Assembly (NCBI RefSeq): GCF_013248995.1
Contig: NZ_JABRPK010000001.1
Location: forward strand, 682,001-746,000
Source of the DNA: Frigoribacterium sp. VKM Ac-2836
Lineage (GTDB): Bacteria > Actinomycetota > Actinomycetes > Actinomycetales > Microbacteriaceae
Direction of reading: 5' to 3'
DNA: 64,000 nt
Part shown: positions 2,627-62,887 of the stretch, piece by piece
How positions within the stretch are numbered: the first letter of the stretch is position 1
How the letters are laid out: each line of letters opens with the position of its first letter
Program-made: the position numbers and the translations under genes
The notes under the pieces: generated by a model
What the model saw: only the letters and a program-made list of their open reading frames with translations
The model's database searches: none
What the model was told of the DNA's origin: nothing

Positions 2627-2686
2627 CGACCCGCGCCTCCTCGGCTCTCGGCCCACCGGCCGACACAGCCCGGGAGGCGCGGGTCG
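2627..2686. terminator. Hairpin built from an inverted pair of the 12-bp word
   Basis: A perfect 14-bp inverted repeat (arms 2627-2640 and 2673-2686, 32-nt loop) lies 10 bp after the fdhA stop. Both arms contain the exact word ACCCGCGCCTCC or its complement. There is no T-tract, which is common for actinobacterial terminators. It is probably the fdhA terminator. Confidence 0.65.
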
Positions 2687-2727
2687 GCCCACCCGGGCCG
2701 GCCGCGTTCCGCAGGCACGCGCGTCGT

Positions 2728-2740
2728 TGCACGTCGTGCA
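2728..2740. promoter_or_regulatory. Short perfect palindrome upstream of MFS gene
   Basis: TGCACGTCGTGCA is a perfect palindrome around a central base, ending 22 bp before the MFS start codon. It could be an operator for the efflux gene; no regulator gene is adjacent, so this is only a candidate. Confidence 0.3.
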
Positions 2741-2762
2741 CGGTGTATGACGGAACGATCCC

Positions 2763-4283
2763 ATGACGAAGACATCCGACACCCCTGCCTCGGGCCGCTC
2801 CGACGCCGCCCGCCCCGCCTCCGGCCCCCGATCCGACGAGGAGCGCCAGAAGTGGCGCGCCTTCGCCGTCTGTGTCGGCGTCGCCGCCCTGACGATCCTC
2901 GACCTGTCGAAGGTCAACGTGGGCCTGCCCAGCATCGAGGCCTCGCTCGGTGCCGGCCCCACCGCCCTGCAGCTGATCGTCGCCGGCTACGCGCTCGCCT
3001 TCGGCCTGTCGCTCGTGCCCTCCGGGCGGCTCGGCGACCTCAAGTCGCGCCGCATGATGTTCGTCATCGGCCTGACCTCGTTCACCGTCGCCAGCCTGCT
3101 CTGCGCCCTCGCGCCCACCATCGAGCTGCTCGTCGCCGCTCGCATCCTGCAGGGCGTCGCCGCCGGCATCCAGATGCCTCAGGTGCTCGGGCTGATCCAA
3201 CAGCTCTTCCAGGGCAAGGAGCGCGGGCGGGCCTTCGGTTTCTTCGGCGCCATCATCGGCGTCAGCACGGCGTTCGGCCCCACCCTCGGCGGCCTGCTCA
3301 TCGCGATCGGCGGGCCTGAGGACGGGTGGCGGCTGCTGTTCTGGATGAACATCCCGCTCGGCCTGATCGCCATCTTCTTCGCGCTCAAGCTGCTGCCGAA
3401 GACCCGCACGGCCTCGAACGGACACAACGAGCTCGACCTCTTCGGCATCGTGCTGCTCGGCTTGACGATCTTCACCCTGATGCTGCCGTTCGTGCTGACG
3501 ACCGGCCAGGGCGACGATCCGCTGCGCTGGCTGTTCTTGATCGGCTTCGTCGGCTTCGGCGCCGCCTTCGTCTGGTGGGAGCAGCGCTACAAGGCCCGGG
3601 GCAAGTCACCGGTCGTGCACTTCAGCCTCTTCTCGCTCGCGTCGTACCGCAACGGCACGCTGATCGCCACGGTGTACTTCTGCGCCCTGCCCGCGACCTT
3701 CCTGCTGACGACGCTCTACCTGCAGCAGGGGCTCGGCCTCGAGCCCGTCTACGCCGGCATGGTGACGATCCCGTTCGCCCTGACCAGCGCCGTCGCCGCC
3801 TTCTACGGCGGACGCCTGGTCGACCGTTTCGGCCGCAGCCTCGTCGTGCTCGGCCTGGTCCTCGTGGCGGTGGGTTTCGTCGCCCTGCTCCTCGCGGCCG
3901 TGCTCACCCCCCGCGAGATCACGCCGTACGCGATGGGCGTCGGCATGCTGATCGCCGGTACGGGTGGTGGCTTCGTCATCTCGCCGAACCAGACGCTGAC
4001 CCTGGCCGAGGTGCCCGTCGAGATGGGTGGCGTCGCCGGCTCGATGGGCCAGGTCGGTCAGCGCGCCGGCACGGCCATCGGCACCGCGGCGGCGGTCTCG
4101 ACGTTCTATTCGGTGATCGCCGGGGCCGGGGGAGCCGCAGGCTCGAATCTCGACGTCTACCACGAGGCCTACCGCAACGGCTTCTTCGTCACGATCGCCC
4201 TGGTGGCCGTGGCGCTCGCGCTCGGCCTGATGGACCTGCGGGCTCGCAAGAAGGGCCGCGTGGGCGAGGCGGCGGAGGCGTAG
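2763..4283 (+). CDS. MFS transporter, DHA2 (EmrB/QacA-like) family
   Basis: A 506-residue polytopic membrane protein of the major facilitator superfamily with about 14 predicted hydrophobic segments, as expected for the DHA2 drug:H+ antiporter branch. The loop 2-3 motif appears as GRLGDLKSRRMM (about residue 90), and the segment LDLSKVNVGLPSIEASLGAG near residue 50 matches the first-helix signature of the branch. The N-terminal 40 residues are hydrophilic and low in complexity. It probably exports a toxic compound; the substrate cannot be read from sequence. The ATG at 2763 has only a weak upstream ribosome site. A small palindrome at 2728-2740 is the only regulatory candidate. Confidence 0.85.
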   Translation: MTKTSDTPASGRSDAARPASGPRSDEERQKWRAFAVCVGVAALTILDLSKVNVGLPSIEASLGAGPTALQLIVAGYALAFGLSLVPSGRLGDLKSRRMMFVIGLTSFTVASLLCALAPTIELLVAARILQGVAAGIQMPQVLGLIQQLFQGKERGRAFGFFGAIIGVSTAFGPTLGGLLIAIGGPEDGWRLLFWMNIPLGLIAIFFALKLLPKTRTASNGHNELDLFGIVLLGLTIFTLMLPFVLTTGQGDDPLRWLFLIGFVGFGAAFVWWEQRYKARGKSPVVHFSLFSLASYRNGTLIATVYFCALPATFLLTTLYLQQGLGLEPVYAGMVTIPFALTSAVAAFYGGRLVDRFGRSLVVLGLVLVAVGFVALLLAAVLTPREITPYAMGVGMLIAGTGGGFVISPNQTLTLAEVPVEMGGVAGSMGQVGQRAGTAIGTAAAVSTFYSVIAGAGGAAGSNLDVYHEAYRNGFFVTIALVAVALALGLMDLRARKKGRVGEAAEA

Positions 4284-4290
4284 TCGGTGG

Positions 4291-4431
4291 TCAGAGGCGG
4301 GCGAAGGCCTCGACGACGTAGCTCGTGACGTCGACCTGACGTGTGCCCGGCAGGGCGATCGACGCGGGGTCGATCGAACCGGCGGCGGTGCTGGCGGTGG
4401 CGGTGGCGGAGACGACGGGCGTGACGAACAT
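4291..4431 (-). CDS. Probable 46-aa small protein of unknown function
   Basis: This short frame starts at ATG 4431 behind GAAAGG (4441-4446) with normal spacing and ends 8 bp from the MFS stop. Nearly every codon ends in G or C, which is the local signature of real coding sequence. The product begins MFVTPVVSATATAS and ends SYVVEAFARL. It is rich in Ala, Thr, Ser and Val, with no cysteine and no clear membrane helix. I recognise no family. It could be a small regulatory or precursor peptide; chance cannot be excluded at this length. Confidence 0.5.
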   Translation of the reverse strand: MFVTPVVSATATASTAAGSIDPASIALPGTRQVDVTSYVVEAFARL

Positions 4432-4692
4432 GGTGGGCCTTTCGGTCGGCTGGTGAGGCGGTTGGCGGGGCCCGGCCGCCCCTCACAGGGAGACGGGCGG
4501 CGGAGCCCCCGGCGCCCCTGCCCGAGATGCTCGGTGCTCCTGTCCGGAGCCGGTGACGTCGTGCGACCAGTCAAGCCGCCTCGACGTTGCGTGACCATGG
4601 GCGCAGGGCTGAGAGTCCCTCCGTCGGAGGGATGAACCTCGGCCCGGGCCCGGGACAATCGGGTGCACGGACGCACGCGCGCACGTTCATTT

Positions 4693-4831
4693 GCCGCGCC
4701 GCCGCCGCCGCCGCCGCCGCCTCGCCGCCGCGTCGCCGCGTCGCCGCCGCGTCGCCGCGTCGCCGCCGCGTCGCCGCGCCGCCGCCGCGTCGCCGCGTCG
4801 CCGCGCCGCCGCCGCGTAGCCGCGTCGCCGG
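4693..4831. repeat. GCC/CGTCG microsatellite tract
   Basis: About 140 bp made almost only of CGC, CGT and GCC triplets, including a run of about ten GCC units at the left and repeating CGCCGCGTCG blocks to the right. The tract is non-coding and should be prone to length change by slippage. Confidence 0.85.
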
Positions 4832-4847
4832 GTCCACTGTGGGCGTC

Positions 4848-4867
4848 GATCCGGTACGTACCGGATC
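4848..4867. promoter_or_regulatory. 20-bp perfect palindrome GATCCGGTAC/GTACCGGATC
   Basis: A perfect two-fold symmetric 20-mer sits 42 bp downstream of the hisN stop and beside the microsatellite. As RNA it would form an 8-bp stem with an ACGT loop. It may be a protein-binding site or part of the hisN transcript end. Confidence 0.4.
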
Positions 4868-4908
4868 ACACAAAGAGACGGATGCGTCCCTGGGCGGAAC
4901 GGCGCGAC

Positions 4909-5742
4909 TCAGGCAGGAGGCGCGGCCACGACCCCGAGGACGCTCTCGTGCAGCAGTCCGTTCGTCGCCATCGCGGTGCCGTGCCAGGGTCCCGGCTGCC
5001 CGTCGGCGCTCGTGAAGCGCCCACCGGCCTCCTCGACGACGACCGCCACGGCCGCCATGTCGTAGGGCTGCAGGTCGAACTCGCCCGCGACGTCGAGTGC
5101 GCCCTCGGCGACGAGCATGTACGACCAGAAGTCGCCGTACGCCCGCGTCCGCCAGACCCGGCTGGTCAGCTCGAGCAACTGCGGCAGGCGCCCGGCGTCG
5201 ATCCAGTACTCGAGCCCGTTGAAGCTGAGCGAGGCGTCGGCCAGGTCGCGCACGCCCGACACCCGCAGTGGGCCGTCGTGCTCGGTCGAGAACGCTCCGC
5301 CGCCCTGCGTCGCCCACCAGCGCCGTCCGAGGGCCGGAGCGCTCACCACGCCCACAACAGGCACCCCGTCGACGACCAGCGAAATCAACGCGGCCCAGAC
5401 CGGCACCCCGCGCAAGAAGTTGGCCGTGCCGTCGATCGGGTCGACCACCCACTGGCGGTGCGAGGGGGCGTCGTGGCCGTACTCCTCGCCGTAGAAGGTG
5501 TCGTCCGGACGCGCGGCCGCGACCCGCTCACGGATCGCCCGCTCGACGGCCCGATCGGCGTCGGTCACGTGCGAACGGTCGGGCTTGAGCGACACGTGCA
5601 GGTCGGCCGAGCGGTACCGCTCGGTGCTGATCGCGTCGGCCAAGTCGGCCAGCTCGAGCGCGAGCGCCAGGTCGTCCGCCCAGGGTGCCCCGGTCGATCG
5701 GTCGGACGAGGAGGCTCGGGTCGGCTCGGCAGCATCGGTCAC
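4909..5742 (-). CDS. hisN: Histidinol-phosphatase, inositol monophosphatase family
   Basis: This 277-residue protein of the Mg-dependent inositol-monophosphatase fold carries the hallmark metal-binding motif WVVDPIDGTANF (about residues 95-106) and a C-terminal segment FDLQPYDMAAVAVVVEEAGG. In actinobacteria the member adjacent to rsgA and aroA is HisN, which dephosphorylates L-histidinol phosphate in histidine synthesis. The start is GTG at 5742. A TACGCT hexamer (5749-5754, minus strand) lies exactly 6 bp before it, so the gene may have its own leaderless transcript. It is 53 bp downstream of rsgA. Another inositol-phosphatase substrate is possible, but context favours HisN. Confidence 0.88.
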   Translation of the reverse strand: MTDAAEPTRASSSDRSTGAPWADDLALALELADLADAISTERYRSADLHVSLKPDRSHVTDADRAVERAIRERVAAARPDDTFYGEEYGHDAPSHRQWVVDPIDGTANFLRGVPVWAALISLVVDGVPVVGVVSAPALGRRWWATQGGGAFSTEHDGPLRVSGVRDLADASLSFNGLEYWIDAGRLPQLLELTSRVWRTRAYGDFWSYMLVAEGALDVAGEFDLQPYDMAAVAVVVEEAGGRFTSADGQPGPWHGTAMATNGLLHESVLGVVAAPPA

Positions 5743-5795
5743 CCCGTCAGCGTACCCAGCCCGCCCTGCTCGTCCGGGCCCTGCGCGCCGGCGCG

Positions 5796-6926
5796 CTAGC
5801 CGAGCTCGTCGCTGCGTGCGTCGTCGGCGGCCGCGGCGAGGTCCCGACCGCTGACGCCGCCCTTGGACTGGAGCAGCGACTGCAGCGACTCGAGCCGTTC
5901 ACGGCCGACGTCGCCGAGCTCGCCGGCCTCGACGCGGTCGACGATCTCCCAGTCGTGGGCCTCGGCCAGGGGAATGCCGTCGACCGGCTCGCCCTCGGCC
6001 GGGATCGCGTGCGCCGCGAACGACTTGAGGATGTTCTCGGGGTCGACGTGCCCGAGCCCGAACGACCGGACGCCCGGGGTGTCGACGATCCAGCCGCCCG
6101 TCGGCACCTTGAACGACACCGTCGACGACGAGGTGTGCCGCCCGCGGCCGGTGACGGCGTTGACCACGCCCACCTCACGCCGCGACCCGGTCAGGGCGTT
6201 CACGAGCGTGGACTTGCCGACGCCAGAGTGGCCGACCGTCACCGTGACGTGACCGTCGAGGACGCCACGCAGTTCGTCGAGCGCGGGGGAGACCTGCCCG
6301 CCCGGCGCGACCTCGTCGAACGAAGTCGACGTCGTCGTGACGATGCGCAGGTCGAAACACGAGAAGTGCGCCGCGAACGGCGTCGGGTCGGCGAGGTCGG
6401 TTTTCGTGATGCAGAGGATCGGTTCGACCCCCGCGTCGAACGCGGCCACCATGTACCGGTCGACCAGGCGCGGGCGCGGTTCGGGGTCGGCCGCGGCCAC
6501 GACGATCAGCATCTGGTCGGCGTTGGCGACGATGACTCGCTCGACCGCGTCGCTGTCGTCGGCGCTGCGCCGCAGCAGCGTGGACCGCTCGTGCACCTTG
6601 ACGATGCGGGCGAGCGACCCCTCGGAGCCGCTCGTGTCGCCGACCACGCCGACGCGGTCGCCGGTCACGACGCTCTTCTTGCCGAGTTCGCGCGCCCGGG
6701 CCGTCGTGATCTCACGCTCGTCGGGCGTGCCCGCATCCATCAGCACGCCGTAGCGGCCGCGGTCCACCGTCCAGACGACGCCCTCCTCGGCGTTCGCGTA
6801 GGCGGGCCGCTGCTTGGTGCGCGGCTTGTTGCCCTTGGGGTTCGGGCGCACCCGCACCGAGCTCTCGTCGTACTCGCCGTAGTCGCGCTCGTCGTCGGCC
6901 TCGTCGCCGTCGGTCCACCAGCTCAT
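5796..6926 (-). CDS. rsgA: Ribosome small-subunit-dependent GTPase A
   Basis: RsgA is a circularly permuted GTPase that checks late 30S ribosome assembly. The 376-residue product shows an OB-like N-terminal half, the G4 motif as TKTDL, the P-loop GHSGVGKSTLVN and G3 as DTPGVRSF, in the permuted order G4-G1-G3. The N-terminal 55 residues are charged and low in complexity. The C-terminal zinc cluster (Cys-X4-Cys-X-His-X5-Cys in many homologues) is not present here; a helical tail is seen instead. It lies 52 bp downstream of aroA and upstream of hisN in the conserved aroA-rsgA-hisN order. Confidence 0.9.
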   Translation of the reverse strand: MSWWTDGDEADDERDYGEYDESSVRVRPNPKGNKPRTKQRPAYANAEEGVVWTVDRGRYGVLMDAGTPDEREITTARARELGKKSVVTGDRVGVVGDTSGSEGSLARIVKVHERSTLLRRSADDSDAVERVIVANADQMLIVVAAADPEPRPRLVDRYMVAAFDAGVEPILCITKTDLADPTPFAAHFSCFDLRIVTTTSTSFDEVAPGGQVSPALDELRGVLDGHVTVTVGHSGVGKSTLVNALTGSRREVGVVNAVTGRGRHTSSSTVSFKVPTGGWIVDTPGVRSFGLGHVDPENILKSFAAHAIPAEGEPVDGIPLAEAHDWEIVDRVEAGELGDVGRERLESLQSLLQSKGGVSGRDLAAAADDARSDELG

Positions 6927-6978
6927 CGTGTCCTGCCCATCGTCGACCGTGCCCTGCCCATCGTCGTCGGCCCGGCGC

Positions 6979-8394
6979 CTAGAGGAACCCGAGCAGGTCG
7001 ATGTCGGCGGGGCTCTGGTGGACGGCCCGACCGAGCATCTCGTCCCACAGCTCGACGAACTGCGGCAGGGTCTTGCCCACGACGCGGACGTCGTCGAGCT
7101 CGACCCCCTCGACCGCGAGGCCGATGATCGCCGCCGCGGTCGCCATGCGGTGGTCCTCGTAGGTGCGCCACTGGCCCGCGTGCAGCGGGGACGGCTCGAC
7201 GCGCAGGCCGTCCTCGAGTTCGGTCACCGCGCCTCCCAGGGCGTTGATCTCGGCCGCCAGGGCTGCGAGACGGTCCGTCTCGTGACCACGCAGGTGACCG
7301 ATGCCGGTGATCGTGCTCGGGCCCGACGCGAGGGCGGCGAGGGCGACCAGCGCGGGGGCGAGTTCGCCGCCGCGCGAGAGGTCGACGTCGACGCCGGGCA
7401 GTGAGCCGCCGCCGACGAGGCCGGGACCGCCGTCGACGGTGAGGGTGTCGCCGTCGAGCGTCACGGTCGCCCCCCAGAGCGGCAGCAGGTCGATCAGGTC
7501 GGCCCCGACCTGCGTCGTGTCGGCGGGCCAGTGGGCGATGGACACGGTGCCCCCGGCGACCAGGGCCGCCACGAGGAACGGCGCCGCGTTTGACAGGTCG
7601 GGCTCGATGACCACCTCGCGCCCCGCGATCGCGGTCGGCGGAACGATCCACGTGCCGGTGGAGGGCGACTCGACCTCGACCCCGCGCTGCGCGAGCGCGT
7701 CGATCGTCATCTCGATGTGCGGCAGGCTCGGCAGGCGTTCGCCGGTGTGGGTCAGGGTGAGGCCGCGCTCGAAGCGCGGCGCGGAGAGCAGCAGTCCCGA
7801 GACGAACTGGCTCGAGGCCGAGGCGTCGATCTCGACGTCACCGCCCTCGACCTCGCCGGTGCCGTAGAGGCTGAACGGCAGCATGCCCCGGCCGTCGTCG
7901 TTGACCTCGACGCCGAGGGAGCGCAGAGCCTCGATCGTGGTGCGCATCGGGCGCTTGCGGGCACCGGCGTCACCGTCGAACGTGACCGGTCCGAGCGCCA
8001 GCGCCGCGACCGGTGGCAGGAACCTCATGACCGTGCCGGCCAGGCCGCAGTCGATCGTGGCGCCGCCCTGCAGCTCGCCCGGCGTGACGACGAGGTCGGG
8101 CCCGAACGGGGAGTCCGACGGGAACTCGGTGACCGTCGTGCCGAGCGCCTTGAGCGCCTCGATCATCAGCGCCGTGTCGCGGGAGTGCAGCGGCAGGCGC
8201 AGCGTCGACGGCGACGACGCCAGCGCCGAGAGCACGAGTTCGCGGTTCGTGAGCGACTTCGACCCGGGCAGGGACGTCGAGGCGCGCAGCGGTCCGGAGG
8301 CGGTGGGCGCGACCCAGCGCCCCTCGTCGACCTCGGGAACCTTTCCGTCGCCGTAGGGAGAGAACTCGGGCCCGGAATACCTGTACACCTGCAT
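6979..8394 (-). CDS. aroA: 3-phosphoshikimate 1-carboxyvinyltransferase (EPSP synthase)
   Basis: This 471-residue enzyme catalyses the sixth step of the shikimate pathway, joining shikimate-3-phosphate and phosphoenolpyruvate. Family motifs include [17 protein letters not shown] near residue 40 and [10 protein letters not shown] near residue 145, plus a C-terminal [13 protein letters not shown] chose ATG 8394 ([15 protein letters not shown]); a TTG eight codons earlier is possible. The start region overlaps the divergent sigH promoter (8374-8399), so expression of the two may interfere. The aroA-sigH-rsrA divergence is conserved in many actinobacteria. Confidence 0.9.
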
Positions 8395-8399
8395 CGGTT
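8374..8399 (+). promoter_or_regulatory. SigR/SigH-class promoter for sigH-rsrA
   Basis: GGAAT at 8374-8378, a spacer of exactly 18 bp, then GTT at 8397-8399. This matches the published thiol-stress sigma SigR/SigH consensus GGAAT-N18-GTT. It points toward sigH and overlaps the first codons of the opposite-strand aroA. It predicts positive autoregulation of the sigma factor under disulfide stress. Predicted transcript start is near 8405. Confidence 0.8.
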
Positions 8400-8490
8400 C
8401 ACCACAGTAATGCAGCAAGAACCTGGAGGACCTGTGCCTGTCGCACTCGCACCGAGGGAAATCACCGTCGCCGAACTAGAATCGGCCCTG

Positions 8491-9180
8491 ATGAGCACCC
8501 CCGAGGGCCACGAGCCCACACCGACCGATGCCGCCGTCGAACCGACCGAGGCCGACGTCGACGCCGCCCTCGAGGCGATCGACGCCGACGCCGAGAAGCG
8601 CGCCCTGTTCGAAGAACAGGCGCTGCCCTTCATGGACCAGCTCTACGCCGCGGGCATGCGCATGACGCGCAACCCGGCCGACGCGAGCGACCTGGTGCAA
8701 GAGACGTTCGTCAAGGCCTACGCGGCGTTCGCGCAGTTCCAGCAGGGCACCAACCTGAAGGCCTGGCTGTACCGCATCCAGACCAACACGTTCATCAACA
8801 CGTACCGCAAGAAGCAGCGCGACCCCTACCAGGGCACGATCGACGAGTTGGAAGACTGGCAGATGGGCGGCGCCGAGTCGGCGACCCGCGCCTCCGGCTC
8901 GACGCGCTCGGCCGAGGCCGAAGCGATCGACCATCTCCCCGACAGCGCCGTGAAGGACGCCCTGCAGAAGGTCCCCGAGGACTTCCGCATGGCCGTGTAC
9001 TTCGCGGACGTCGAAGGCTTCTCGTACCAAGAGATCGCCGACATCATGAAGACCCCCGTGGGCACCGTGATGAGCCGCCTGCACCGCGGCCGTCGCCTGC
9101 TCCGTGAACTCCTCGCCGACTACGCACGCGATCGTGGCATCGCCGTTCCGGTCGGCTCGTCGAAGGGCGGAAAGAAATGA
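8491..9180 (+). CDS. sigH: ECF sigma factor SigH/SigR, thiol-oxidative stress
   Basis: A 229-residue group IV sigma factor. Region 2 (about residues 45-110) contains [14 protein letters not shown] and [20 protein letters not shown]. Region 4 (about 160-212) contains [20 protein letters not shown]. These match Mycobacterium SigH and Streptomyces SigR, which turn on thioredoxin and low-molecular-weight thiol genes under disulfide stress. The anti-sigma gene follows with an ATGA overlap. ATG 8491 has a weak ribosome site. A GTG at 8434, in frame and 4 bp after a strong GGAGG (8425-8429), would add 19 residues; an in-frame ATG at 8410 would be nearly leaderless. Two isoforms are possible, as known for Streptomyces SigR. 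Confidence 0.9.
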
Positions 9181-9422
9181 CCGACTGTGGTTGCACCAAA
9201 GCCAAGGCCGAGCTCGAGGACTACCTGCACAACGAGTTGTGCCGCGAGGACGCGGCCGACATCCGCGAGCACATGGCGAACTGCGGTGACTGCTCGGGCG
9301 AGCACAAGGTCGGCGTCGTGCTGACCGAGGCCGTCCAGCGGGCCTGCCGCGAGACGGCACCCGAAGACCTGCGTGCCACCGTGCTGGCGCGCCTGCGCGA
9401 GCTGCAATCGGCCCACCGCTAG
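9177..9422 (+). CDS. rsrA: Zinc anti-sigma factor, RsrA/RshA type
   Basis: An 81-residue ZAS-family anti-sigma factor that binds the upstream SigH in the cytoplasm and releases it when thiols are oxidised. The zinc motif His-X3-Cys-X2-Cys is H32, C36 and C39 (HMANCGDC). Additional cysteines at 4, 6 and 22 could supply the redox-sensing disulfide. Start ATG overlaps the sigH stop by 4 bp, implying translational coupling and fixed stoichiometry. Size and position are typical. Confidence 0.9.
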
Positions 9423-9481
9423 CCGCGGCCACCGGGGGCACCCGGTCGTCACACGCCGAGAGCCTGCGCTAGCGTCGTGGC

Positions 9482-9922
9482 ATGACCGCACCGGTGCAGC
9501 CCCTCGGCATCCCGACCACCAGCGACCTCGACGACCTCGTGTCGTTGATCGGACTGCTCGGCTACACGCTCGACACCGACGTCCTGTCGGCCCGCCTGAC
9601 GCGCTTGACGGCCGATGCGGGGCACGAGACCTGGGTCGTGCGCGGTGACGACGGGCGCATCACGGCGGTGGCCGGCGGTCACGTCGTGTGGGCGTACAAC
9701 GACGATGCACCGACAGCCGAATTGTTGTTGCTCGTGGTGTCCGCCGAGGCCCGTCGTGACGGCGTCGGATCGTACCTGCTCGGGCACTTCGAGGCCTGGG
9801 CCCGGGGCCACCAGGCGCGTGTGCTCAACGCGGTCTCGGCCGCGGCCACGGACTCGGCCAACCGCTTCTACCGCAAGCGCGGCTACCACGAGGCCGGCGT
9901 CCGCTACTCGAAGCTGATCTGA
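9482..9922 (+). CDS. GNAT-family N-acetyltransferase
   Basis: A 146-residue GCN5-related acetyltransferase fold. The acetyl-CoA loop region reads RRDGVGSYLLGHFEAWARG (about residues 98-116), followed by the conserved AANRFYRKRGY-like segment, here DSANRFYRKRGYHE. The substrate is unknown. TAGCGT at 9470-9475 lies exactly 6 bp before ATG 9482, suggesting a leaderless mRNA. It is a single gene between rsrA and a long non-coding interval. Confidence 0.8.
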   Translation: MTAPVQPLGIPTTSDLDDLVSLIGLLGYTLDTDVLSARLTRLTADAGHETWVVRGDDGRITAVAGGHVVWAYNDDAPTAELLLLVVSAEARRDGVGSYLLGHFEAWARGHQARVLNAVSAAATDSANRFYRKRGYHEAGVRYSKLI

Positions 9923-10274
9923 CCGCCGGGACGGATGTTCCCGCCGCCTGCGGCTCCTTAGGCCCCTGCGGCCCCTGCGGCCGGTCGGCGATTCGGGCCC
10001 CCCGTCCTGCCGGGTGATCGACATTCCCCTGGGCGTACCTGTCCTGGTCGGCGAGCCCGTGACGGGTGGTCGCCCGGTTCCCTGGGCGGCGACCACCGCC
10101 TCCGGCACCGCCCCGCTCGAGCATCGTCGTGGGTCGTGGGTCGGTAATTCAGGGCTGCTGCTTCGGATCGGGTCCCCGGCGCGGGACGGGGTGACAGGAG
10201 CCCTGAATTGCCGACGCGCAGGGCGAGGCGGCGCTGCCGCGACAGCGAGCCAGGGCCGACGGATCGCGGTGAGA
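9923..10274. other. Non-coding interval with an imperfect inverted repeat
   Basis: This interval of about 350 bp has no credible gene. It contains a 16-bp inverted repeat (10141-10156 and 10199-10214, 15 of 16 paired), whose core AATTCAGGGCT is much richer in A+T than the surroundings, and ends at the kgd terminator hairpin. Confidence 0.6.
10141..10214. repeat. 16-bp inverted repeat with 42-bp spacer
   Basis: Left arm 10141-10156 and right arm 10199-10214 match at 15 of 16 positions. The AT-rich arm sequence is unlike local composition. It may be a small repetitive palindromic element or an RNA hairpin; only one copy is seen in this window. Confidence 0.6.
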
Positions 10275-10316
10275 CGACCGTGGCCGCGCCTCCCGTAGGA
10301 GGCGCGGCCACGGTCG
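10275..10316. terminator. Bidirectional terminator hairpin between GNAT and kgd
   Basis: A perfect 19-bp inverted repeat (10275-10293 and 10298-10316) with a 4-nt CGTA loop begins 17 bp beyond the kgd stop. The stem contains the core CCGCGCCTCC shared with the dispersed word. It can terminate kgd on the minus strand. Confidence 0.8.
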
Positions 10317-10332
10317 TTCGATCGGTGGCCGT

Positions 10333-14091: not shown

Positions 14092-14213
14092 AGCCGATCG
14101 CCCACTCTCCGTTGATTGTTGATCAGTGCGTGGGCAGCGATGCCCACCTCGCCCAGCTTAAGCGCAAAGGGTCGGTCCTCGGCGGGACGACTCACAGGGA
14201 TTACCGTGGACCC

Positions 14214-15650: not shown

Positions 15651-15705
15651 GACCGCGTGACGTCGAACCACGGGAATCGTGCACGTGCCGTAAGATCTCC
15701 CGTCT

Positions 15706-15810
15706 ATGGATGACCCTCCGTCTCAGACGACCGCACCCTCGCACCATCGCACGCCGCGCCTCCTGACCACGGGCCCCACGACCTCCGAGCGGGGTGAGGG
15801 CACCCGGTGA
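15706..15810 (+). CDS. Possible 34-aa leader peptide before CNNM gene
   Basis: A short frame MDDPPSQTTAPSHHRT... begins 9 bp after TAAGAT (15691-15696) and its TGA overlaps the GTG start of the next gene (bases GTGA). It is proline-, threonine- and histidine-rich with no recognisable domain. It could be a leaderless peptide that couples translation into the CNNM gene, or simply a 5' leader. Support is positional only. Confidence 0.25.
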   Translation: MDDPPSQTTAPSHHRTPRLLTTGPTTSERGEGTR

Positions 15811-18304: not shown

Positions 18305-18318
18305 CCGGGCCCGACGCA

Positions 18319-18377
18319 GACGACGCGACCCGCGCCTCCTGACCCCGAGAGGGTACGGAGGCGCGGGTCGCGTCGTC
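18319..18377. terminator. 21-bp perfect hairpin between convergent genes
   Basis: Arms 18319-18339 and 18357-18377 are fully complementary, with a 17-nt loop. Both arms contain an exact copy of the 12-bp word. It can terminate the CNNM operon (plus) and the ene-reductase gene (minus). Confidence 0.8.
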
Positions 18378-18400
18378 CGCGAGGCCGCGGCCCCTGCGGC

Positions 18401-19534: not shown

Positions 19535-19542
19535 GAGGGGGG

Positions 19543-19722
19543 TCAGCGCCTTTCGGTGGGGTGGGCCGCGAGTTCTTCGACGAAGCGTCGGAGGGGCTCG
19601 GGCCCGGTGGACAGGTGCCCGATGATGCCGAGCTCCTGGGCGGCCTCGACGTCGTCGGACCTGTTGTCGATGAACACCGCGCCGGCGGCCGTTGTTCCGA
19701 GTTCAGCCAGCGGGGTACGTGT
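19543..19722 (-). pseudogene. C-terminal fragment of a HAD-superfamily hydrolase
   Basis: A 59-codon open frame reads AVFIDNRSDDVEAAQELG followed by IIGHL and a helical end FVEELAAH. This matches the last quarter of HAD-IA phosphatases, where motif IV (usually DD) sits just before the final helix. The nucleophile DxD motif, the cap and motifs II-III are absent. A stop codon (19723-19725) blocks the frame upstream and no suitable start is visible. It lies 9 bp upstream of the ene-reductase. I infer a deletion remnant. Confidence 0.6.
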
Positions 19723-19779
19723 TCATCGCTCCACCGTATCGGCGGACCCGGCGCAGGCGGGCCCGACTACCGTCGAGGC

Positions 19780-21420: not shown

Positions 21421-21534
21421 GATGGTCGTCCTTCGGAGGGGTCGGCGTGACGCGCGGCGAGTCCACGGGGCTGACCCGATGGTGACGCGTCACCCTCGCA
21501 GGAACCTGGGAGGCGCGGGTGAAGACGGTGGGGG

Positions 21535-24055: not shown

Positions 24056-24134
24056 GAGAGGGATCGTAGCGGCGACGGACGACGTCGGCCGACGCATGAC
24101 GCCCGGTGTCGGGGTCGGCGGCTAGCCTGTGGGC

Positions 24135-50713: not shown

Positions 50714-50749
50714 GCGGGAGGCGCGCCCCTGTCGGTCGCGCCTCCTGCG
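50714..50749. terminator. Hairpin between SIP and SDR genes
   Basis: GGAGGCGCG (50717-50725) pairs with CGCGCCTCC (50737-50745), and the stem extends outward with one mismatch to 50714/50748. It lies between convergent genes and shares the GGAGGCGCG core. Confidence 0.65.
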
Positions 50750-53351: not shown

Positions 53352-53544
53352 GGCCCGACGCTAGTCGCCCCGCCGACCGCGTTCTCAGGCGGCCTCGTTC
53401 GGGCGACATGGCCGTTTCGTGAAACCCTGCTGAGTTTTCTCTGGACGCCGCGAGCGAGACCGAGGAGGCGCGGGTAACGTCCTTCCCATCAGCGCAACTC
53501 CGCGATCGTTGCGGCGGAGCGCGTCAACCTACGAGGAGGCACAC

Positions 53545-55500: not shown

Positions 55501-56640
55501 TCACGGTCGGGCGCCCGTGCTCCAGGCCCAGGGGCGACTCAGCGCACCGATCGCGCGCTCGAGGGGCCCGCGCCCGACGAACCGTTGCCAGAGGGTCGCG
55601 TAGACGAGCGTGAGGACGACGGCGGCGACCAGGTGGCCGAGGGGCAGACCGTAGGCGGCGGCCGGGTCGGACAGACGGTACACGGTGAACAGGGGGGCCG
55701 TCACGAGCACGTGGGCCGTGTAGACGGTCAGGGGTTGCGCGCCCGTCGCCGCGAGGGGACGCAGGACGGTGCGGACGACCGCGGCCGCGCCTCCTCGTCC
55801 CCGGCTCTCCGGCGTCATCGGGCGATGCGCGGTGGTGGCGAGCAGGAGGCATCCGAGCACGGCGGCGGCGACGCCACCCGAGCCCACGATCTCGGCCGGC
55901 ATGCCCTCGTGGTCGGCCGGGTCGAACCAGGGGACCGAGGAGGCACCGGGCAGGAAGCGCGCCGAGTACCCCACGATCGCGGCCGACGTCCCGACGACGA
56001 GCAGCGTGACCTGGGTGCGGGTACGAGTCAGGTCGGAGCGCGCCGCGGCGACTCCGACGAGCAGGAAGGGCGTCCAGACCAGCGCCGGGTAGGCGCCGAC
56101 CAACAGGGCCTGGGTGGCGAGACCGCCGGCGCCGGACAACGCGGTGTCACCGTAGGCGTCGACGGGGACGGACGAGGCCAGCCACGGAGCCACGACGGCG
56201 AGCAGTGCTGCGGCCGCGAGCAACACGGCCCGAGGGGCGAAGAGCAGCCCCAGCACGAGGACGAACATGACGCCGTAGTACGGCAGGATCACGAGCAGGT
56301 AGGGGTTCCAGGCCTGGAGTGCGAGGCCCAGGACGACCAACAGGCCGCCCCGGATGGCGATGCCCCCGAGAGTTCGGCCCCGACGGCCGCGGGGCGTCGG
56401 CCTGGCGCCACCGGACATGAGCCCGAGCGAGACCCCGGCGAGGGTGGCGAACAGGATCGCGGACCGGCCGTCGAAGATGCGCTCGTCGAGCAGCGGCCGA
56501 GGCCACATGTGGGCGGCGAACATGCCCAGCACGGCGAGGCCGCGGGCGATGTCGACGCCCATGAGGCGCGGCGCCGCCCCACGCCCCTGCACCGGCGGGG
56601 TCACCGACGGAGCAGGCAGGCGGGGCGGCGGGTGGCTCAC
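55501..56640 (-). CDS. Multi-pass acyltransferase, HGSNAT/DUF1624-like
   Basis: A 379-residue polytopic protein with about ten membrane segments. The N-terminal RLMGVDIARGLAVLGMFAAHM is the signature of the heparan-alpha-glucosaminide N-acetyltransferase/DUF1624-DUF418 group, which acylates extracytoplasmic sugars; the catalytic His would be that of AAHM. The final GAQPLTVYTAHVL and LGHLVAAVVLTLVYATLW fit the DUF418 end. GTG 56640 overlaps the PspA stop by 4 bp, so it is co-translated with the stress protein. Confidence 0.75.
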   Translation of the reverse strand: MSHPPPRLPAPSVTPPVQGRGAAPRLMGVDIARGLAVLGMFAAHMWPRPLLDERIFDGRSAILFATLAGVSLGLMSGGARPTPRGRRGRTLGGIAIRGGLLVVLGLALQAWNPYLLVILPYYGVMFVLVLGLLFAPRAVLLAAAALLAVVAPWLASSVPVDAYGDTALSGAGGLATQALLVGAYPALVWTPFLLVGVAAARSDLTRTRTQVTLLVVGTSAAIVGYSARFLPGASSVPWFDPADHEGMPAEIVGSGGVAAAVLGCLLLATTAHRPMTPESRGRGGAAAVVRTVLRPLAATGAQPLTVYTAHVLVTAPLFTVYRLSDPAAAYGLPLGHLVAAVVLTLVYATLWQRFVGRGPLERAIGALSRPWAWSTGARP

Positions 56641-57359: not shown

Positions 57360-57474
57360 GGTGCGTCCTTTCGAGAGGTGGTGCGGTGGGGTGGTGCTCG
57401 TCGTAGTCGTCGTGCTGCTGGTTCGGGGCGGGGCGGGGCGGGGCGAGGCAGGGCGGGGACGGTGACGGACGGGC

Positions 57475-59496
57475 CTAGAACCGGCCGCCGCCGGAGCTGC
57501 GGCCGCCCCCTCCGCCTCCGCCTCCGCCGCCGAAGCCGCCTCCGCCACCGAAGCCGCCTCCGCCGCCCCCGCCACCGAAGCCTCCGCCGCCCCCGCCACC
57601 GAAGCCTCCGCCGCCCCCGCTGAACAGGCCACCGAGCAGCATGCCGGTGACGATCCCGCCGAGGTCGGCGCCGGCCGACCCGCGGCTGCGGACGCCGCCT
57701 CCGAACGGGCTCGCCTGCTGGTACGACGAGACCTCTGCCTCGGCGCCGGCCGCTGCGGCCTGCGACAGTTGGACGGCCTGGTGGGCCTCGAACAGGGCTG
57801 CGTCGCGGTCGGACGTTGCGAGGGCCACCGCGGTGGCCAGGTGGCGCTCGGCCTCGGACAAGCGGGTGCGCGGCTGCGGACCGATGCCGCCCCGACGAGT
57901 CTCGATGAAGTCACGGGTGGCGCTGATCTGGCTGCGGGCGGTCAGCAGCGCCTGGTCGAGGGCAGCCTGCGCCCGGCGCTGTTTCTCGGTGTCTTCGCGG
58001 ACGGCGGCCAGCACCCGGTCGATGCGGTCGTTGGCGGCACCGAGCGAGGCGACGACGGCGAGCGGGTCGTCGGTCGTCGTCTCGGCCAGGGCCACGGAGT
58101 CCCGTGCGGCCGAGACGGAGCCGGCGACGTCGACTCCCTGGGGAGCCGCGCCGTCGGGTAGGCGCTCGGCCGTCTCGATGTCCCTCCGTAGGTCGAGGGT
58201 CATCGCCGAGATCGTGCTGCCCGCCGTCCGCAGCGACTCGGCGGCACCGTCGATCGCGGTCAGCAGCTGGTCGACCTGTGCCAGTGCCTGACGGGCCTCA
58301 CGGATGGCGACGACGGCTTCCGAGGTGGCCGACGAGCTCACCGCAGCAGCAGCCGTGCCCCTCCGCTCGTCGGCGAACTCGAGGAGGCGGTCGGCCTGGT
58401 CGTCGTTCTGGTCGATCGACGCGACCGCTCGCGCCGAGTAGAGGGTGGTCAGCTCACCGATCGTCGAGCGAGCCGTCACGAGGCGGGCCCGTCGGCTCTC
58501 GATCTCGCCCGGCAGGGCCTGGAGGTCGCGCGGTGCCCTGCTCTCGGCCTCGCGCAGCTCGTCGAACGCGGCGGACTGCTCGGCGAGCGAAGCGTCGGCC
58601 GCCTCGCACAACTCGATGATGCGGGTGGTCCACTCGCGGCGTTGCTCGGGGGAGTCGGGAACGGAGTCGTCGAGCTTCTGCTGCAGGGCGAACGCTTCGC
58701 GAGCCTGCACCCGGGCCGCGTCGAGTGCCTCGGCGAACGGCTTGGCCGCATCGTCGCCGAACTGCGCGGCGGCGAAGCCGACCTCGTGCGCGCCGGCGGT
58801 CAGTTCGTCGTCGAGGGCGACCAACACCCGGGCGGCGCGTCGGTCGAGCTCGTCCTGGTCGGCCTTCTGTGCGTCGACCTCACGGCGGCGGCGTCGTGCC
58901 CGGCGGATGACGGCGACCACGACGACGGCCGCCACGACGAGCAACAGCACGAGCAGCGCCCACAACACCCAGCTGAGGTGGGGACCCGCCTCGTCGCTGC
59001 GGATGCCGTCGGCCAGGGCCACGGCGGCGCCGGCCCAATCGCCGTCGCGCAGCTGCGGCAGGACCACGTCGGTCTGAAGAGCCTGGCGGTCGGACTCCGA
59101 CAGGACGGAGGTGTCGGCCGAGAGGTCGTAGAACTGGTCGTCCACCGAGACCGAGAGCAACACGTCGTTCGTGCCGAGCTGGTTCAACGATGCCGTGGCC
59201 TCACCCCAGGCCGTGCGGTCGGAGGGGGAGGTGAACGAATCGACGTAGACGACGAAGAGATTGACGCCGGTGTCGGCCGAGAGCGAGTCCAGCGCGTCGG
59301 TGACGTGACGTTCGTCGGCGCCCGAGAGGACGTCGGCCTGGTCGACCACGTAGGCACCGGAGAGTTCGACCGGTTCGACCGCCTGAGCAGGGCCCCCTCC
59401 GACGACGATGCCGCCCACCAGGGTCAGGACGGCCGTCACGGCAGCGACCAGGGCCCACCTCGTCGGTCGTCGGCCGGTCGTTGCGCTCGTTCTCAC
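57475..59496 (-). CDS. TPM-domain protein with long coiled coil and poly-Gly tail
   Basis: A 673-residue protein. Signal peptide (about residues 15-40), then an extracytoplasmic TPM domain (about 45-170) with SGAYVVDQADVLSGADERHV and NDVLLSVSVDDQFYDL, a membrane helix (about 178-200, VLWALLVLLLVVAAVVVVAV) with an RRARRRRR stop, a cytoplasmic helical region of 400 residues, and a final Gly/Phe-rich tail of 50 residues. GTG 59496 has GGGGAG 6 bp upstream. It is first of an operon with pspA. TPM domains appear in membrane-stress and photosystem-repair proteins; its enzymatic role here is unproven. Confidence 0.85.
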   Translation of the reverse strand: MRTSATTGRRPTRWALVAAVTAVLTLVGGIVVGGGPAQAVEPVELSGAYVVDQADVLSGADERHVTDALDSLSADTGVNLFVVYVDSFTSPSDRTAWGEATASLNQLGTNDVLLSVSVDDQFYDLSADTSVLSESDRQALQTDVVLPQLRDGDWAGAAVALADGIRSDEAGPHLSWVLWALLVLLLVVAAVVVVAVIRRARRRRREVDAQKADQDELDRRAARVLVALDDELTAGAHEVGFAAAQFGDDAAKPFAEALDAARVQAREAFALQQKLDDSVPDSPEQRREWTTRIIELCEAADASLAEQSAAFDELREAESRAPRDLQALPGEIESRRARLVTARSTIGELTTLYSARAVASIDQNDDQADRLLEFADERRGTAAAAVSSSATSEAVVAIREARQALAQVDQLLTAIDGAAESLRTAGSTISAMTLDLRRDIETAERLPDGAAPQGVDVAGSVSAARDSVALAETTTDDPLAVVASLGAANDRIDRVLAAVREDTEKQRRAQAALDQALLTARSQISATRDFIETRRGGIGPQPRTRLSEAERHLATAVALATSDRDAALFEAHQAVQLSQAAAAGAEAEVSSYQQASPFGGGVRSRGSAGADLGGIVTGMLLGGLFSGGGGGFGGGGGGGFGGGGGGGGFGGGGGFGGGGGGGGGGRSSGGGRF
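57481..57625. repeat. Low-complexity GCCGCC/GAAGCCTCC tract encoding poly-Gly tail
   Basis: About 145 bp of imperfect GCCGCC, CCGCCCCCGCCACCGAAG repeats. On the minus strand it gives runs of 5-10 glycines with occasional Phe in the TPM protein tail. It is probably slippage-prone in frame. Confidence 0.8.
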
Positions 59497-60013: not shown

Positions 60014-60904
60014 GTGAACCCCAGCCCCCTCGGCCGTGTGCCGGCGCCCCTGCTCGCCGTGGCGGCGATCGTGTCGGTGCAGTTCGGGGCCGCTCTCGCT
60101 AAGACGCACTTCGAGGCCCTGGGGCCCACGGGCGCGGCCGCCCTGCGCCTCGCCTTCGGGGCCGCGCTGCTGCTCGTGGTCTTCCGTCCGCGCCCCTGGC
60201 GGTGGCCGGGCCGGACGTGGCTCGGAGTGGTCCTGCTCGGCCTCGCCCTCGCGGGAATGAACTCGTTGATCTACCTCGCGATCGACGTCGTGCCGCTCGG
60301 GGTGGCGGTCACCCTCGAGTTCCTCGGTCCGCTCGTCGTGGCGCTCGTGCAGACCAGACGCTGGTGGGACGCGGCCTGGGCATTACTCGCTCTCGCGGGA
60401 GTCGTGCTGCTCGGTTCCGACTCGACCGGGGCGATCCCCACCGCCGGTGTGCTGCTCGCCCTCGGGGCGGGGGCTTTCTGGGCGTGTTACATCCTGGCCA
60501 ACGCCTCGCTCGGACGAGGCCGTGACCCTATGGGCACCCTGGCGACCGCGATGCTCGTCGCCGCGGTCGTCGTGGTGCCCTTCGGCGCGCACGACGCGAC
60601 GGTCGCGGTGCGGGCCGACCCGCGCCTCCTGGTGATCTTCCTGGTGGTGGCCGCCCTGACCTCGGCGATCCCGTACGCCCTCGAGTCCGTGGCGCTGCGG
60701 CGGCTGCCCACGAGGGTGTTCGGGGTGCTGTCGAGTCTGGGGCCGGCGGTGGCCGCCGTGGCCGGGCTCGTCGTGTTGCGTGAGGCCCTCGGAGTGCGCG
60801 AGGTCGTGGCTCTCGCCTGCGTGACGACGGCGAGCGTGGGGGTCACGGTCGCGGCCGGTCGGCGACGGCGTCCGGGGCCCCTCCCCGAGGCTCCGACGGC
60901 CTGA
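60014..60904 (+). CDS. EamA-family transporter (RhtA/threonine-homoserine exporter-like)
   Basis: A 296-residue protein with ten membrane helices in two EamA repeats. QFGAALAKTHFEALGPTGAAALRLAFGAAL begins the first repeat; LGVAVTLEFLGPLVVAL and the second-repeat AIPYALESVALRRLPTRVFGVLSSLGPAVAA match the RhtA subgroup, which exports threonine and homoserine. The substrate is inferred. GTG 60014 follows GGAG. It is divergent from the DUF3592 gene and stands alone. Confidence 0.85.
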   Translation: MNPSPLGRVPAPLLAVAAIVSVQFGAALAKTHFEALGPTGAAALRLAFGAALLLVVFRPRPWRWPGRTWLGVVLLGLALAGMNSLIYLAIDVVPLGVAVTLEFLGPLVVALVQTRRWWDAAWALLALAGVVLLGSDSTGAIPTAGVLLALGAGAFWACYILANASLGRGRDPMGTLATAMLVAAVVVVPFGAHDATVAVRADPRLLVIFLVVAALTSAIPYALESVALRRLPTRVFGVLSSLGPAVAAVAGLVVLREALGVREVVALACVTTASVGVTVAAGRRRRPGPLPEAPTA

Positions 60905-61270: not shown

Positions 61271-61310
61271 GAACGACCGTCCACTGACGCGGCCACCGGC
61301 AGGCGTCACC

Positions 61311-61335: not shown

Positions 61336-61366
61336 TCCTCTCTCCACCGTCGTCGGAAGGCCTCCC

Positions 61367-61951
61367 GTGACCGTCGTCGGGTACGCCCGAATCTCGCGAG
61401 ACGACCCGTCGTCCGACCGGCAGGTCGACCGCCTCCGGGCCACCGGGTGCGACGAGGTCTTCGTCGATCACGCCACCGGTACCCGGCAGCCCCGCCCCGA
61501 GTTCGCCAAGGCCATCGGCAGCCTGCGCGAGGGCGACGTGTTCGTCGTGGTGAACGTCGACCGCATCGGGCGCTCGGTCGCCGAGCTGGTCGGCGTGATG
61601 GCGACGCTCGACGCCCTGGGCGTGGCCTTCCGCTCGATCGACGAGCAGATCGACGAGCTGAACGCGTACGGCCGTTTCTTCTTCCGGGTCACCGCCGCCC
61701 TGGCCCGCTTCGACGAGCAGGTCGGCGGCGAGCTGCACCGTGCCGAGACCCGCAGACGTCAGGAGGCGCGGGTCGCGCAGACCCCGAAACCCCCGGTCTC
61801 GAGGCGCCGTCTCGATGCCGCCCGTCAGCTGCGCGCGGGGGGAGCGAGCATGCGCGAGGCCGCCGAGCACGTCGCCGTGCCCGAGCGCGTCCTCCGCCGC
61901 GAACTCGAGCGCGACGACGCCGATCGTGCCCGGCGGCAGCAGCCCGACTGA
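61367..61951 (+). CDS. Serine site-specific recombinase (resolvase/invertase type)
   Basis: A 194-residue serine recombinase. The catalytic domain begins VVGYARISRDDPSSDRQVDRL with nucleophile Ser10, continues with VVVNVDRIGRSVAELVGVM and DEQIDELNAYGRFFFRVTAALARFDE, and ends with a short HTH (about 145-185, SRRRLDAARQLRAGGASMREAA). All key residues (S10, R8, R68-R71 region) are present. GTG 61367 follows GGAAGG. It has no neighbouring transposon or inverted cassette but lies 65 bp from tRNA-Arg, which may be a remnant integration site. Confidence 0.88.
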   Translation: MTVVGYARISRDDPSSDRQVDRLRATGCDEVFVDHATGTRQPRPEFAKAIGSLREGDVFVVVNVDRIGRSVAELVGVMATLDALGVAFRSIDEQIDELNAYGRFFFRVTAALARFDEQVGGELHRAETRRRQEARVAQTPKPPVSRRRLDAARQLRAGGASMREAAEHVAVPERVLRRELERDDADRARRQQPD

Positions 61952-62015
61952 CTCCCGGCGCTGAGAGGACCGGCGCGCACGGGATGGAATGGACCAGCAT
62001 TCGGCCGAGAGAACG

Positions 62016-62090
62016 TGGTGCCCCCAGGCAGATTCGAACTGCCGCCCCTGCCTCCGGAGGGCAGTGCTCTATCCCCTGAGCTATGGGGGC
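62016..62090 (-). tRNA. tRNA-Arg (anticodon CCG)
   Basis: On the minus strand the 72-nt cloverleaf runs 62090-62019: acceptor GCCCCCA/TGGGGGC, D arm GCTC-8 nt-GAGC, anticodon stem CTGCC/GGCAG with loop CTCCGGA (anticodon CCG), 4-nt variable region, and T arm GGCAG-TTCGAAT-CTGCC. The discriminator is A and a genomically encoded CCA follows (62018-62016). It decodes CGG. Confidence 0.95.
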
Positions 62091-62167
62091 CCGGGAACGT
62101 CGTCAAGGTTAGCAGCGAATCGGTGCCGTCTGGAACGACGACGCCGGGCAGGGTGCATCGTGGGGGA

Positions 62168-62887
62168 GTGACCGACGACAAGCACACCGACCCAGCCGAC
62201 CGCGACGCTCGCTCCGACCGCACCGATCCCGACGGCCCGACGCTGCGCGAGCGCCTCCGCTCGGCCAAGGTCTTCCATCCCGAGCTGCCCACCTTCGACG
62301 TCGACGCCGTGGCCGACGACGCGGTCGACCAGTTCGTCGCCTGGCTCGTGGAGGCCGTCGACCAGGACGTGGCCCAGCCGCACGCCATGGTGATCTCGAC
62401 CTCGTCGTCCGACGGTGACGTCACCGCCCGCACCCTGCTGCTCAAGGACGTCGACGACGGCGCCCTCTGGTTCGCCACCTCCTCGATCAGCCCGAAGGGA
62501 CGGCAGATCGCCGAGAACCCCCGGGTGGCCCTCACCCTCTACTGGCGGGAGCAGGGCCGCCAGGTCCGGGTGCTCGGTCGGGCGACGCCAGGACCGCGCG
62601 ACGTCAGCGAGAAGGACTTCACCGCGCGCCACCCGGACTCGCGCGCCGTGGCCATGACGCAGCCGCAGAGCAGCCCGATCACCGACGAGGCCGAGACGCG
62701 TCGTCGCCTCGCCGAGGCCAAGGCCGCGATCGAGTCCGACGACACCCTCGTCCCCGAGGACTGGACGGCCTGGCGGGTCGACCCCACCTCGATCGAGTTC
62801 TGGCAGGCGACCACGGGCCGCAACCAGGTGCGTCTGCGGTACGACCGCGACGGAGACGGCTGGACCCGCGCCTCCTTGTGGCCCTGA
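62168..62887 (+). CDS. pdxH: Pyridoxamine 5'-phosphate oxidase family protein
   Basis: A 239-residue FMN-binding split-barrel protein. The PNPOx FMN and substrate pocket appear as QPHAMVISTSSSDGDVTARTLLLKDVDDGALWFATSSISPKGRQIAENP-like segments, and the C-terminal signature is WTAWRVDPTSIEFWQATTGRNQVR (about residues 195-218). It makes pyridoxal phosphate from pyridoxine or pyridoxamine phosphate. GTG 62168 has CATCGT 6 bp upstream, suggesting a leaderless mRNA. The C-terminal codons contain an exact copy of the 12-bp word. Confidence 0.85.
   Translation: MTDDKHTDPADRDARSDRTDPDGPTLRERLRSAKVFHPELPTFDVDAVADDAVDQFVAWLVEAVDQDVAQPHAMVISTSSSDGDVTARTLLLKDVDDGALWFATSSISPKGRQIAENPRVALTLYWREQGRQVRVLGRATPGPRDVSEKDFTARHPDSRAVAMTQPQSSPITDEAETRRRLAEAKAAIESDDTLVPEDWTAWRVDPTSIEFWQATTGRNQVRLRYDRDGDGWTRASLWP

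Follow-up and report, generated by a model that had tools for sequence, protein, structure and literature searches.

To our knowledge, only two bacterial families, both Gram-negative, are known to have uptake sequences. In the Neisseriaceae, as described by Frye et al. (2013, PMC3630211), the DNA uptake sequence (DUS) occurs in ∼1,900 copies in 2.2-2.3 Mb and in eight dialects; copies lie in genes and in inverted pairs tied to terminators, and a core is common to the dialects of related species. For the uptake signal sequence (USS) of Haemophilus influenzae, the account of van Passel (2008, PMC2346458) places 59 or 65% of copies in genes, versus 84 or 86% coding DNA, and describes an over-represented, non-palindromic word with no general orientation bias and a bias to gene termini. 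Here we analyze a 9-mer, CGCGCCTCC, that is dispersed through a 64,000-nt stretch of the genome of Frigoribacterium sp. VKM Ac-2836 (contig 1, 682001-746000; hereafter the window), an assembly of 3,273,901 bases in 10 contigs. Like the DUS as described there, this word is present in ∼1,900 copies in its genome and lies both within genes and in inverted pairs; like the USS in that account, it is found less in genes than expected, with 66% of copies in DNA that is 87% coding. It differs from the USS in word and organism and from the DUS in word, phylum and cell wall.

An initial annotation of the window had listed a 12-mer, ACCCGCGCCTCC, at 15 positions, all of which are exact matches, and had put the chance expectation at well under one copy. 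We obtain a mean of 0.05 in 100 dinucleotide shuffles (largest value, 1) and 0.03 from a third-order Markov model built on window sequence. When up to one mismatch is allowed, 26 copies are seen versus 2.35 expected. The reported 18-mer extension, CGACCCGCGCCTCCTCGG, is found without change at 2627, 27256 and 43483. The annotation had also named two outcomes that would refute its claim, a genome-wide count not above a third-order Markov expectation or enrichment limited to terminators. Genome-wide, the 12-mer occurs 446 times (215 forward, 231 reverse), compared to 4 for the reversed word, and its enrichment is not limited to terminators.

The true repeat unit is the 9-mer CGCGCCTCC rather than the 12-mer. 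We sampled the same genome in 40 scattered stretches (one of which, L045, is all N and was left out of the strand table) plus the window, 830 kb in total or a quarter of the genome, and predicted genes with our own approximate codon-model caller (818 genes, 87.4% coding). Null expectations came from dinucleotide shuffles and from Markov models built on the window or the 830-kb sample; the whole-genome control was the reversed word. CGCGCCTCC is the top-ranked 9-mer of the sample, with 480 copies versus 25 expected (order-4 Markov model). Its one-base variants sum to 674, which is background (∼689 expected); 17 of the 27 fall under expectation, and only three (A or T at base 1, T at base 3) are at least 2.5-fold over it. 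The flanks are softer, about gACC-CGCGCCTCC-T(C/G)G. Genome-wide, there are 1,875 copies (953 forward, 922 reverse), one per 1.75 kb, compared to 100 (54 and 46) for the reversed word.

Comparison with related genomes, which the annotation had recommended, extends this abundance to the whole genus. All 16 genus genomes analyzed carry 1,355-2,305 copies of CGCGCCTCC each, with the strands nearly equal. We label this genus g1, further genera of the Microbacteriaceae with other g-numbers, genomes with G-numbers and fetched stretches with L-numbers; g32 may be Curtobacterium. Across the family (398 genomes, 85 genera), the 12-mer reaches 178-533 copies in all 10 g1 genomes drawn, is raised in most of nine g32 genomes (6-64 copies), and outside these two genera has at most 14 copies, close to the reversed-word control.

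The window holds 39 copies of the core, 23 genic and 16 intergenic:

615-623, plus strand: core, antisense in minus-strand gene 99-1076
2632-2640, plus strand: core within 12-mer 2629-2640, intergenic, inverted-pair arm
2673-2681, minus strand: core within 12-mer 2673-2684, intergenic, inverted-pair arm
4916-4924, minus strand: core in minus-strand gene 4909-5742
7228-7236, plus strand: core, antisense in minus-strand gene 6979-8394
8887-8895, plus strand: core within 12-mer 8884-8895, in plus-strand gene 8434-9180
10285-10293, plus strand: core, intergenic between convergent genes, arm of a perfect 19-bp hairpin
10298-10306, minus strand: core, intergenic, other arm of the same perfect 19-bp hairpin
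13874-13882, minus strand: core within 12-mer 13874-13885, in minus-strand gene 10333-14079
15755-15763, plus strand: core, intergenic
18331-18339, plus strand: core within 12-mer 18328-18339, between convergent genes, member of an inverted pair
18357-18365, minus strand: core within 12-mer 18357-18368, between convergent genes, member of an inverted pair
19328-19336, plus strand: core within 12-mer 19325-19336, antisense in minus-strand gene 18401-19534
19984-19992, plus strand: core in plus-strand gene 19561-20613
21509-21517, minus strand: core within 12-mer 21509-21520, intergenic
22385-22393, minus strand: core in minus-strand gene 22353-23129
22769-22777, minus strand: core in minus-strand gene 22353-23129
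25126-25134, plus strand: core in plus-strand gene 24129-25469
27261-27269, plus strand: core within 12-mer 27258-27269, intergenic between convergent genes
27555-27563, minus strand: core, intergenic between convergent genes
32201-32209, minus strand: core, intergenic, inverted-pair arm
32229-32237, plus strand: core, intergenic, inverted-pair arm
34166-34174, minus strand: core, antisense in plus-strand gene 33792-34568
36386-36394, minus strand: core within 12-mer 36386-36397, antisense in plus-strand gene 35778-36746
38176-38184, plus strand: core in plus-strand gene 38090-38893
38860-38868, plus strand: core in plus-strand gene 38090-38893
41891-41899, minus strand: core in minus-strand gene 41594-42175
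42091-42099, plus strand: core, antisense in minus-strand gene 41594-42175
43488-43496, plus strand: core within 12-mer 43485-43496, in plus-strand gene 42641-44065
47141-47149, minus strand: core in minus-strand gene 46571-47524
50717-50725, minus strand: core, intergenic between convergent genes, inverted-pair arm
50737-50745, plus strand: core, intergenic between convergent genes, inverted-pair arm
53464-53472, minus strand: core within 12-mer 53464-53475, intergenic between divergent genes
55786-55794, plus strand: core, antisense in minus-strand gene 55501-56562
60621-60629, plus strand: core within 12-mer 60618-60629, in plus-strand gene 60014-60904
61762-61770, minus strand: core within 12-mer 61762-61773, antisense in plus-strand gene 61367-61951
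62867-62875, plus strand: core within 12-mer 62864-62875, in plus-strand gene 62168-62887
63271-63279, minus strand: core, antisense in plus-strand gene 62989-63789
63809-63817, plus strand: core, intergenic between convergent genes

Of the fifteen 12-mers, seven are intergenic and eight genic, the latter occurring on either strand and in more than one frame, consistent with the earlier description. For the core, the 830-kb sample gives 317 genic and 163 intergenic copies, or 0.44 per kb in genes compared to 1.56 per kb in spacers (3.6-fold). Genic copies are read in sense (180) and antisense (137) and occupy all six orientation-frame classes, one of them rare (8/317). Under synonymous shuffling, 60 copies (sd 8) are obtained versus 316 observed, an approximately five-fold excess, and the core occupies 316 of the 1,062 places at which the protein sequence permits it; with six permuted words, the share is 2-11%. 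The number of copies per gene is close to Poisson, and in complete genes 48 of 306 copies lie within the first tenth. Density in spacers depends on the flanking genes (3.0 per kb for convergent, 1.9 for tandem and 0.7 for divergent). Convergent and tandem spacers together have 142 copies, 105 of which are no more than 60 nt from a gene 3' end. The complement contains AGGAGG, and a role as Shine-Dalgarno site was considered; we rejected it, as only 7 of 796 gene starts (5 for the other orientation) have the word within 25 nt upstream. Four tandem cores of the same orientation, 33-41 nt apart, were seen in a single spacer of L062 (∼6844-6962). The window also contains closely spaced copies of short, GC-rich repeats at 4693-4838 and 57467-57635.

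Close inverted pairs (within 60 nt) account for 46 of the 163 intergenic copies; of these 23 pairs, 7 have the word followed by its complement and 16 the opposite order. The annotation had pointed to two such pairs, at 2627-2686 and 18319-18377. Both exist, although by the 9-mer core the window contains five, which fold at z -4.4 to -8.8. Slightly longer stretches around the two original pairs fold strongly (z -5.8 and -7.9). A scan of window positions 1-20000, which contain three of the five pairs, gave no U-tailed terminator at any of these three.

Conservation was assessed by aligning the window with four close relatives (90-93% identical, and mutually non-independent); the test is based on the 39 core copies of this one 64-kb region, and copies without a complete alignment were left out. 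Between 20 and 22 of the 23 genic copies are intact, versus 43-54% of same-composition words, and intergenic copies are intact in 12-15 of 15-16 aligned, versus 24-36%. The nine core columns diverge by 0.7-2.6%, compared to 6.5% for the base before, 21.7% for the base after and 3.2 to 24.5% for the columns outside the core from -26 to +34. Third codon positions of genic copies have diverged in 9 of 276 cases (3.3%) within the core versus 419 of 2,276 (18.4%) nearby, and random in-phase 9-mers are equally conserved in at most 0.3% of draws. No gaps occur in the core columns of window copies in the four relatives, insertions private to a relative being invisible to this alignment. Where a relative has a core that is missing in the window, the window sequence is usually one substitution off (7/8, 9/10, 9/11 and 9/11 for the four relatives). 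The turnover observed is by substitution. Relatives at 78-81% identity keep a smaller share, with 6/11, 2/5 and 2/4 genic copies and 2/5, 1/2 and 2/2 intergenic ones.

A search for competence genes, also suggested by the annotation, was positive. Contig 3 of this genome carries a type IV pilus operon (∼483-496 kb) with genes for PilB, PilT, PilC, PilD, PilM and a major pilin, two prepilin-like genes, one gene at the place of PilX and two at the places of PilN and PilO, these last three being assigned by position alone. The major pilin resembles solved pilin structures and is the only one above the Pfam pilin-signal cut-off, the two prepilins being called by N-terminal motif. The same gene order from pilC to pilD is seen in one genome of g32 and three of the genus, and PilM was found in all four genus genomes examined. 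The two prepilin-like genes are fast-changing, with 38-57% identity within the genus versus 92-96% for the compared part of PilC. A ComEA-like gene (SLBB and helix-hairpin-helix domains) precedes the gene for ComEC, and the genome also has a Tad-type ATPase locus. Natural transformation via Flp/Tad pili is described for the actinobacterium Micrococcus luteus (PMC6370729). ComEC is present in all 16 genus genomes. At L175 (7797-11267), the ComEC frame (1,156 aa) ends in a DNA polymerase III delta C-terminal domain, such that ComEC and HolA look, from the reading frame, to be fused or to share one open frame.

The gene dprA, which handles incoming DNA, is likewise found in 16/16 genus genomes, as a single match in 14 and in two pieces in the other two. 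One interruption lies in L038 (4243-20000; G000 contig 1, from ∼604.2 kb), where a prophage with serine integrase, terminase, portal and capsid genes starts directly after a truncated dprA, the remainder of which is found 18.5 kb on; the intervening sequence was retrieved except for its final 2.7 kb. In G357, the two pieces are ∼18 kb apart. The portal protein of the L038 prophage shares 48% identity with its counterpart in 17-kb Microbacterium phages. Prophages at competence genes are known in pneumococci, as reported in PMC12637031, and the dprA prophage recalls them.

The number and sharpness of the copies, their strand symmetry, placement, conservation and turnover by substitution, and the presence of machinery genes, fit an uptake sequence. 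CGCGCCTCC is a non-palindromic top word with 1,875 copies on both strands, in genes and enriched in spacers, with inverted pairs near gene ends, in a host that has a type IV filament and ComEA/ComEC. We consider it probable, on balance, that the word serves natural transformation as a self tag throughout the genus, in the manner of DNA uptake sequences. We infer preferential uptake through a surface receptor, for which a type IV minor pilin is the likeliest candidate and which would bind word-bearing DNA in either orientation. Pilus retraction would be followed by import of one strand via ComEA/ComEC, and recombination would install the imported strand. Word-bearing DNA would enter more often, so that the word would build up wherever genes or spacers tolerate it, and either uptake drive or selection for exchange with kin could maintain it; spacer copies often pair into hairpins at gene ends. 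Among the open-licence papers listed in our searches, no title or abstract opening mentions an uptake word of this kind from Actinobacteria, Actinomycetota or Microbacteriaceae.

The annotation had offered a nucleoid or recombination motif as its alternative, and the two halves of that proposal fare differently. The nucleoid half remains the main rival. The word would then be the site of an abundant putative chromosome-binding protein (a nucleoid organiser, condensin partner or repair factor), placed every 1-2 kb and indifferent to orientation. Genome-wide spread, absence of strand bias and strong conservation in genes and spacers alike are in keeping with such a protein, and it would suit those genomes that are rich in GCATCC words and lack PilM (see below). 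Alone, however, it predicts neither inverted pairs at gene ends nor a change of word between related genera, and we judge it rather unlikely. The recombination half, a Chi-like signal, is taken here together with an FtsK-orienting polar sequence (KOPS); both readings draw on CGCGCCTCC being a GC-rich word of one genus and, like Chi and KOPS, short and over-represented. Chi and KOPS are strand-biased relative to replication. The annotation had advised looking for such a bias, and none was seen: counts by GC skew of the stretch are 114/129 and 125/112. Equal whole-genome strand counts could mask a bias between replichores, and we therefore computed the best single switch, which gives fractions of 0.53 and 0.54 on sampled stretches of the two large contigs. 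Neither measure reveals Chi- or KOPS-type polarity, and inverted pairs are common, making this explanation very improbable.

An RNA-level signal, in the form of a set of terminator hairpins with a common word in their arms, would account for spacer enrichment near gene ends, for the strong hairpins and for the word of g32 genome G105, which is nearly confined to spacers and mostly paired. It leaves unexplained the genic majority in both senses (317/480) with its conserved third codon positions, the low share of intergenic copies in close inverted pairs (46/163) and the missing U-tailed terminators at the hairpins of window 1-20000; we regard it as very improbable. Repetitive extragenic palindromes and bacterial interspersed mosaic elements (REP/BIME) likewise form spacer hairpins at gene ends, but the present word consists mostly of single genic 9-mers that turn over by substitution. 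Thousands of copies in a GC-rich genome might nonetheless suggest a mobile short repeat of REP or miniature inverted-repeat transposable element (MITE) type, or an artefact of composition or codon use. Core columns are gap-free in the four relatives (relative-only insertions escaping the alignment) and gains are mostly one substitution off, which argues against mobility, and an artefact is ruled out by the synonymous shuffles (60 versus 316) and the reversed-word controls (100 versus 1,875). We attach almost no probability to this last pair of explanations.

Related words occur in other genera. The core 9-mer itself is above the reversed-word control in seven of nine g32 genomes and below it in two; for g55, a single genome was counted, with 1,064 copies versus 337 reversed. 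In 100 kb of G105, the core is extended to CGCGCCTCCAGTCC, with 8 pairs forming palindromes, and 40 kb of G354 carry the form CGAGCCTCCCGTCC. GCCTCC words are found in g32 and one g55 genome, and many genera have GCATCC words. Among 11 named Microbacteriaceae loci, five (Rhodoglobus, one from Agromyces, M105 and two from Microbacterium) show an at least threefold excess of GGATGCC, the complement of GGCATCC, on both strands; such an excess was seen in none of five loci from other families. In one close locus pair, 25 of 35 copies of GGATGCC are kept, versus 46% for same-composition words (P = 0.003); five more distant pairs show no clear excess over the control.

We also compared these words with the distribution of PilM. 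In a 7-mer survey (20 kb each from 19 of 20 planned genomes, G043 with its short contig missing), a GCATCC-type word is among the two strongest in 8/10 genomes with PilM (score at least 8.4) and, weakly (6.2), in 2/9 without. Counts of CGGCATCC over 169 genomes range from 30 to 4,491, with strands more than 3 sd apart in 5/169. After exclusion of 37 genomes under 2.4 Mb, and with G073 (PilM E = 0.001, below cut-off) scored negative, the median per Mb is 423 in 77 genomes with PilM versus 247 in 55 without (P = 0.004); when nine genomes from g1, g32 and g55 are also excluded, it is 473 (68) versus 247 (55), with P = 2e-4, neither P value being corrected for phylogeny. Two species of g85, G106 and G164, differ ∼ninefold (4,491 versus 485 copies of CGGCATCC), and hence words can expand or vanish within one genus. 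In L246 (G034, g35, without PilM), CGGATCC occurs 59 times versus ∼16 in 20 kb and is possibly another dispersed word. A cluster of 26 copies of AGCGGGGATG in one 20-kb stretch, L245 (G024, g25), could represent a repeat array, for example CRISPR.

We tentatively entertain, as something rather short of an even prospect, a broader reading in which much of the Microbacteriaceae has its own uptake-sequence system, arisen in Gram-positives independently of the Neisseriaceae and Pasteurellaceae, with a core GC(A/C)TCC and genus dialects that form a barrier between genera. The words of the other genera would then be kin, as dialects of one system: CGCGCCTCC here, CGCGCCTCCAGTCC and CGAGCCTCCCGTCC in g32, and GGCATCC or CGCATCC elsewhere. 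Because the link to PilM is loose and GGATGCC is conserved in only one of six locus pairs, this idea is plausible, not established.

Several observations weigh against CGCGCCTCC being an uptake-type self tag. The initial annotation had likened its word to the uptake sequences of Neisseria and Pasteurellaceae; the likeness stands for copy number, use of both strands, placement, sharp core, conservation and the presence of pilus and ComEC genes, but the association of the GCATCC-type word with type IV pili and PilM is loose, and the richest genome, G106, is without PilM. ComEC is near-universal in the family (166/169 genomes) and therefore useless as a discriminator. The second prepilin, the sole further one searched against solved structures, gave weak pilin matches and no known DNA receptor. 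In G105, 21 of 25 words lie in spacers. Turnover is less clean in the distant G357, with 2/7 of the cores missing in the window one substitution off. Each 20 kb of the sample has 0-24 copies (mean 11.6, variance 28), an over-dispersed distribution. The 15.8 kb of prophage contain no core versus ∼9 expected at sample density, but housekeeping stretches are also poor (1 copy in L041, 3 in L042), as are the 4.2 kb beside the prophage (0), and hence the zero is indecisive.

Should a chromosome-binding protein prove responsible instead, CGCGCCTCC would be a new, strongly constrained site spread throughout the genome, which would likewise be of interest. If the word is an uptake-type self tag, adding it to donor DNA could aid engineering of such bacteria. 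It would constitute a third, independent case of uptake sequences, in actinobacteria and perhaps with family-wide dialects. This would mean that self-tagging of DNA evolves repeatedly, and the question of drive versus selection would become testable in a new clade.

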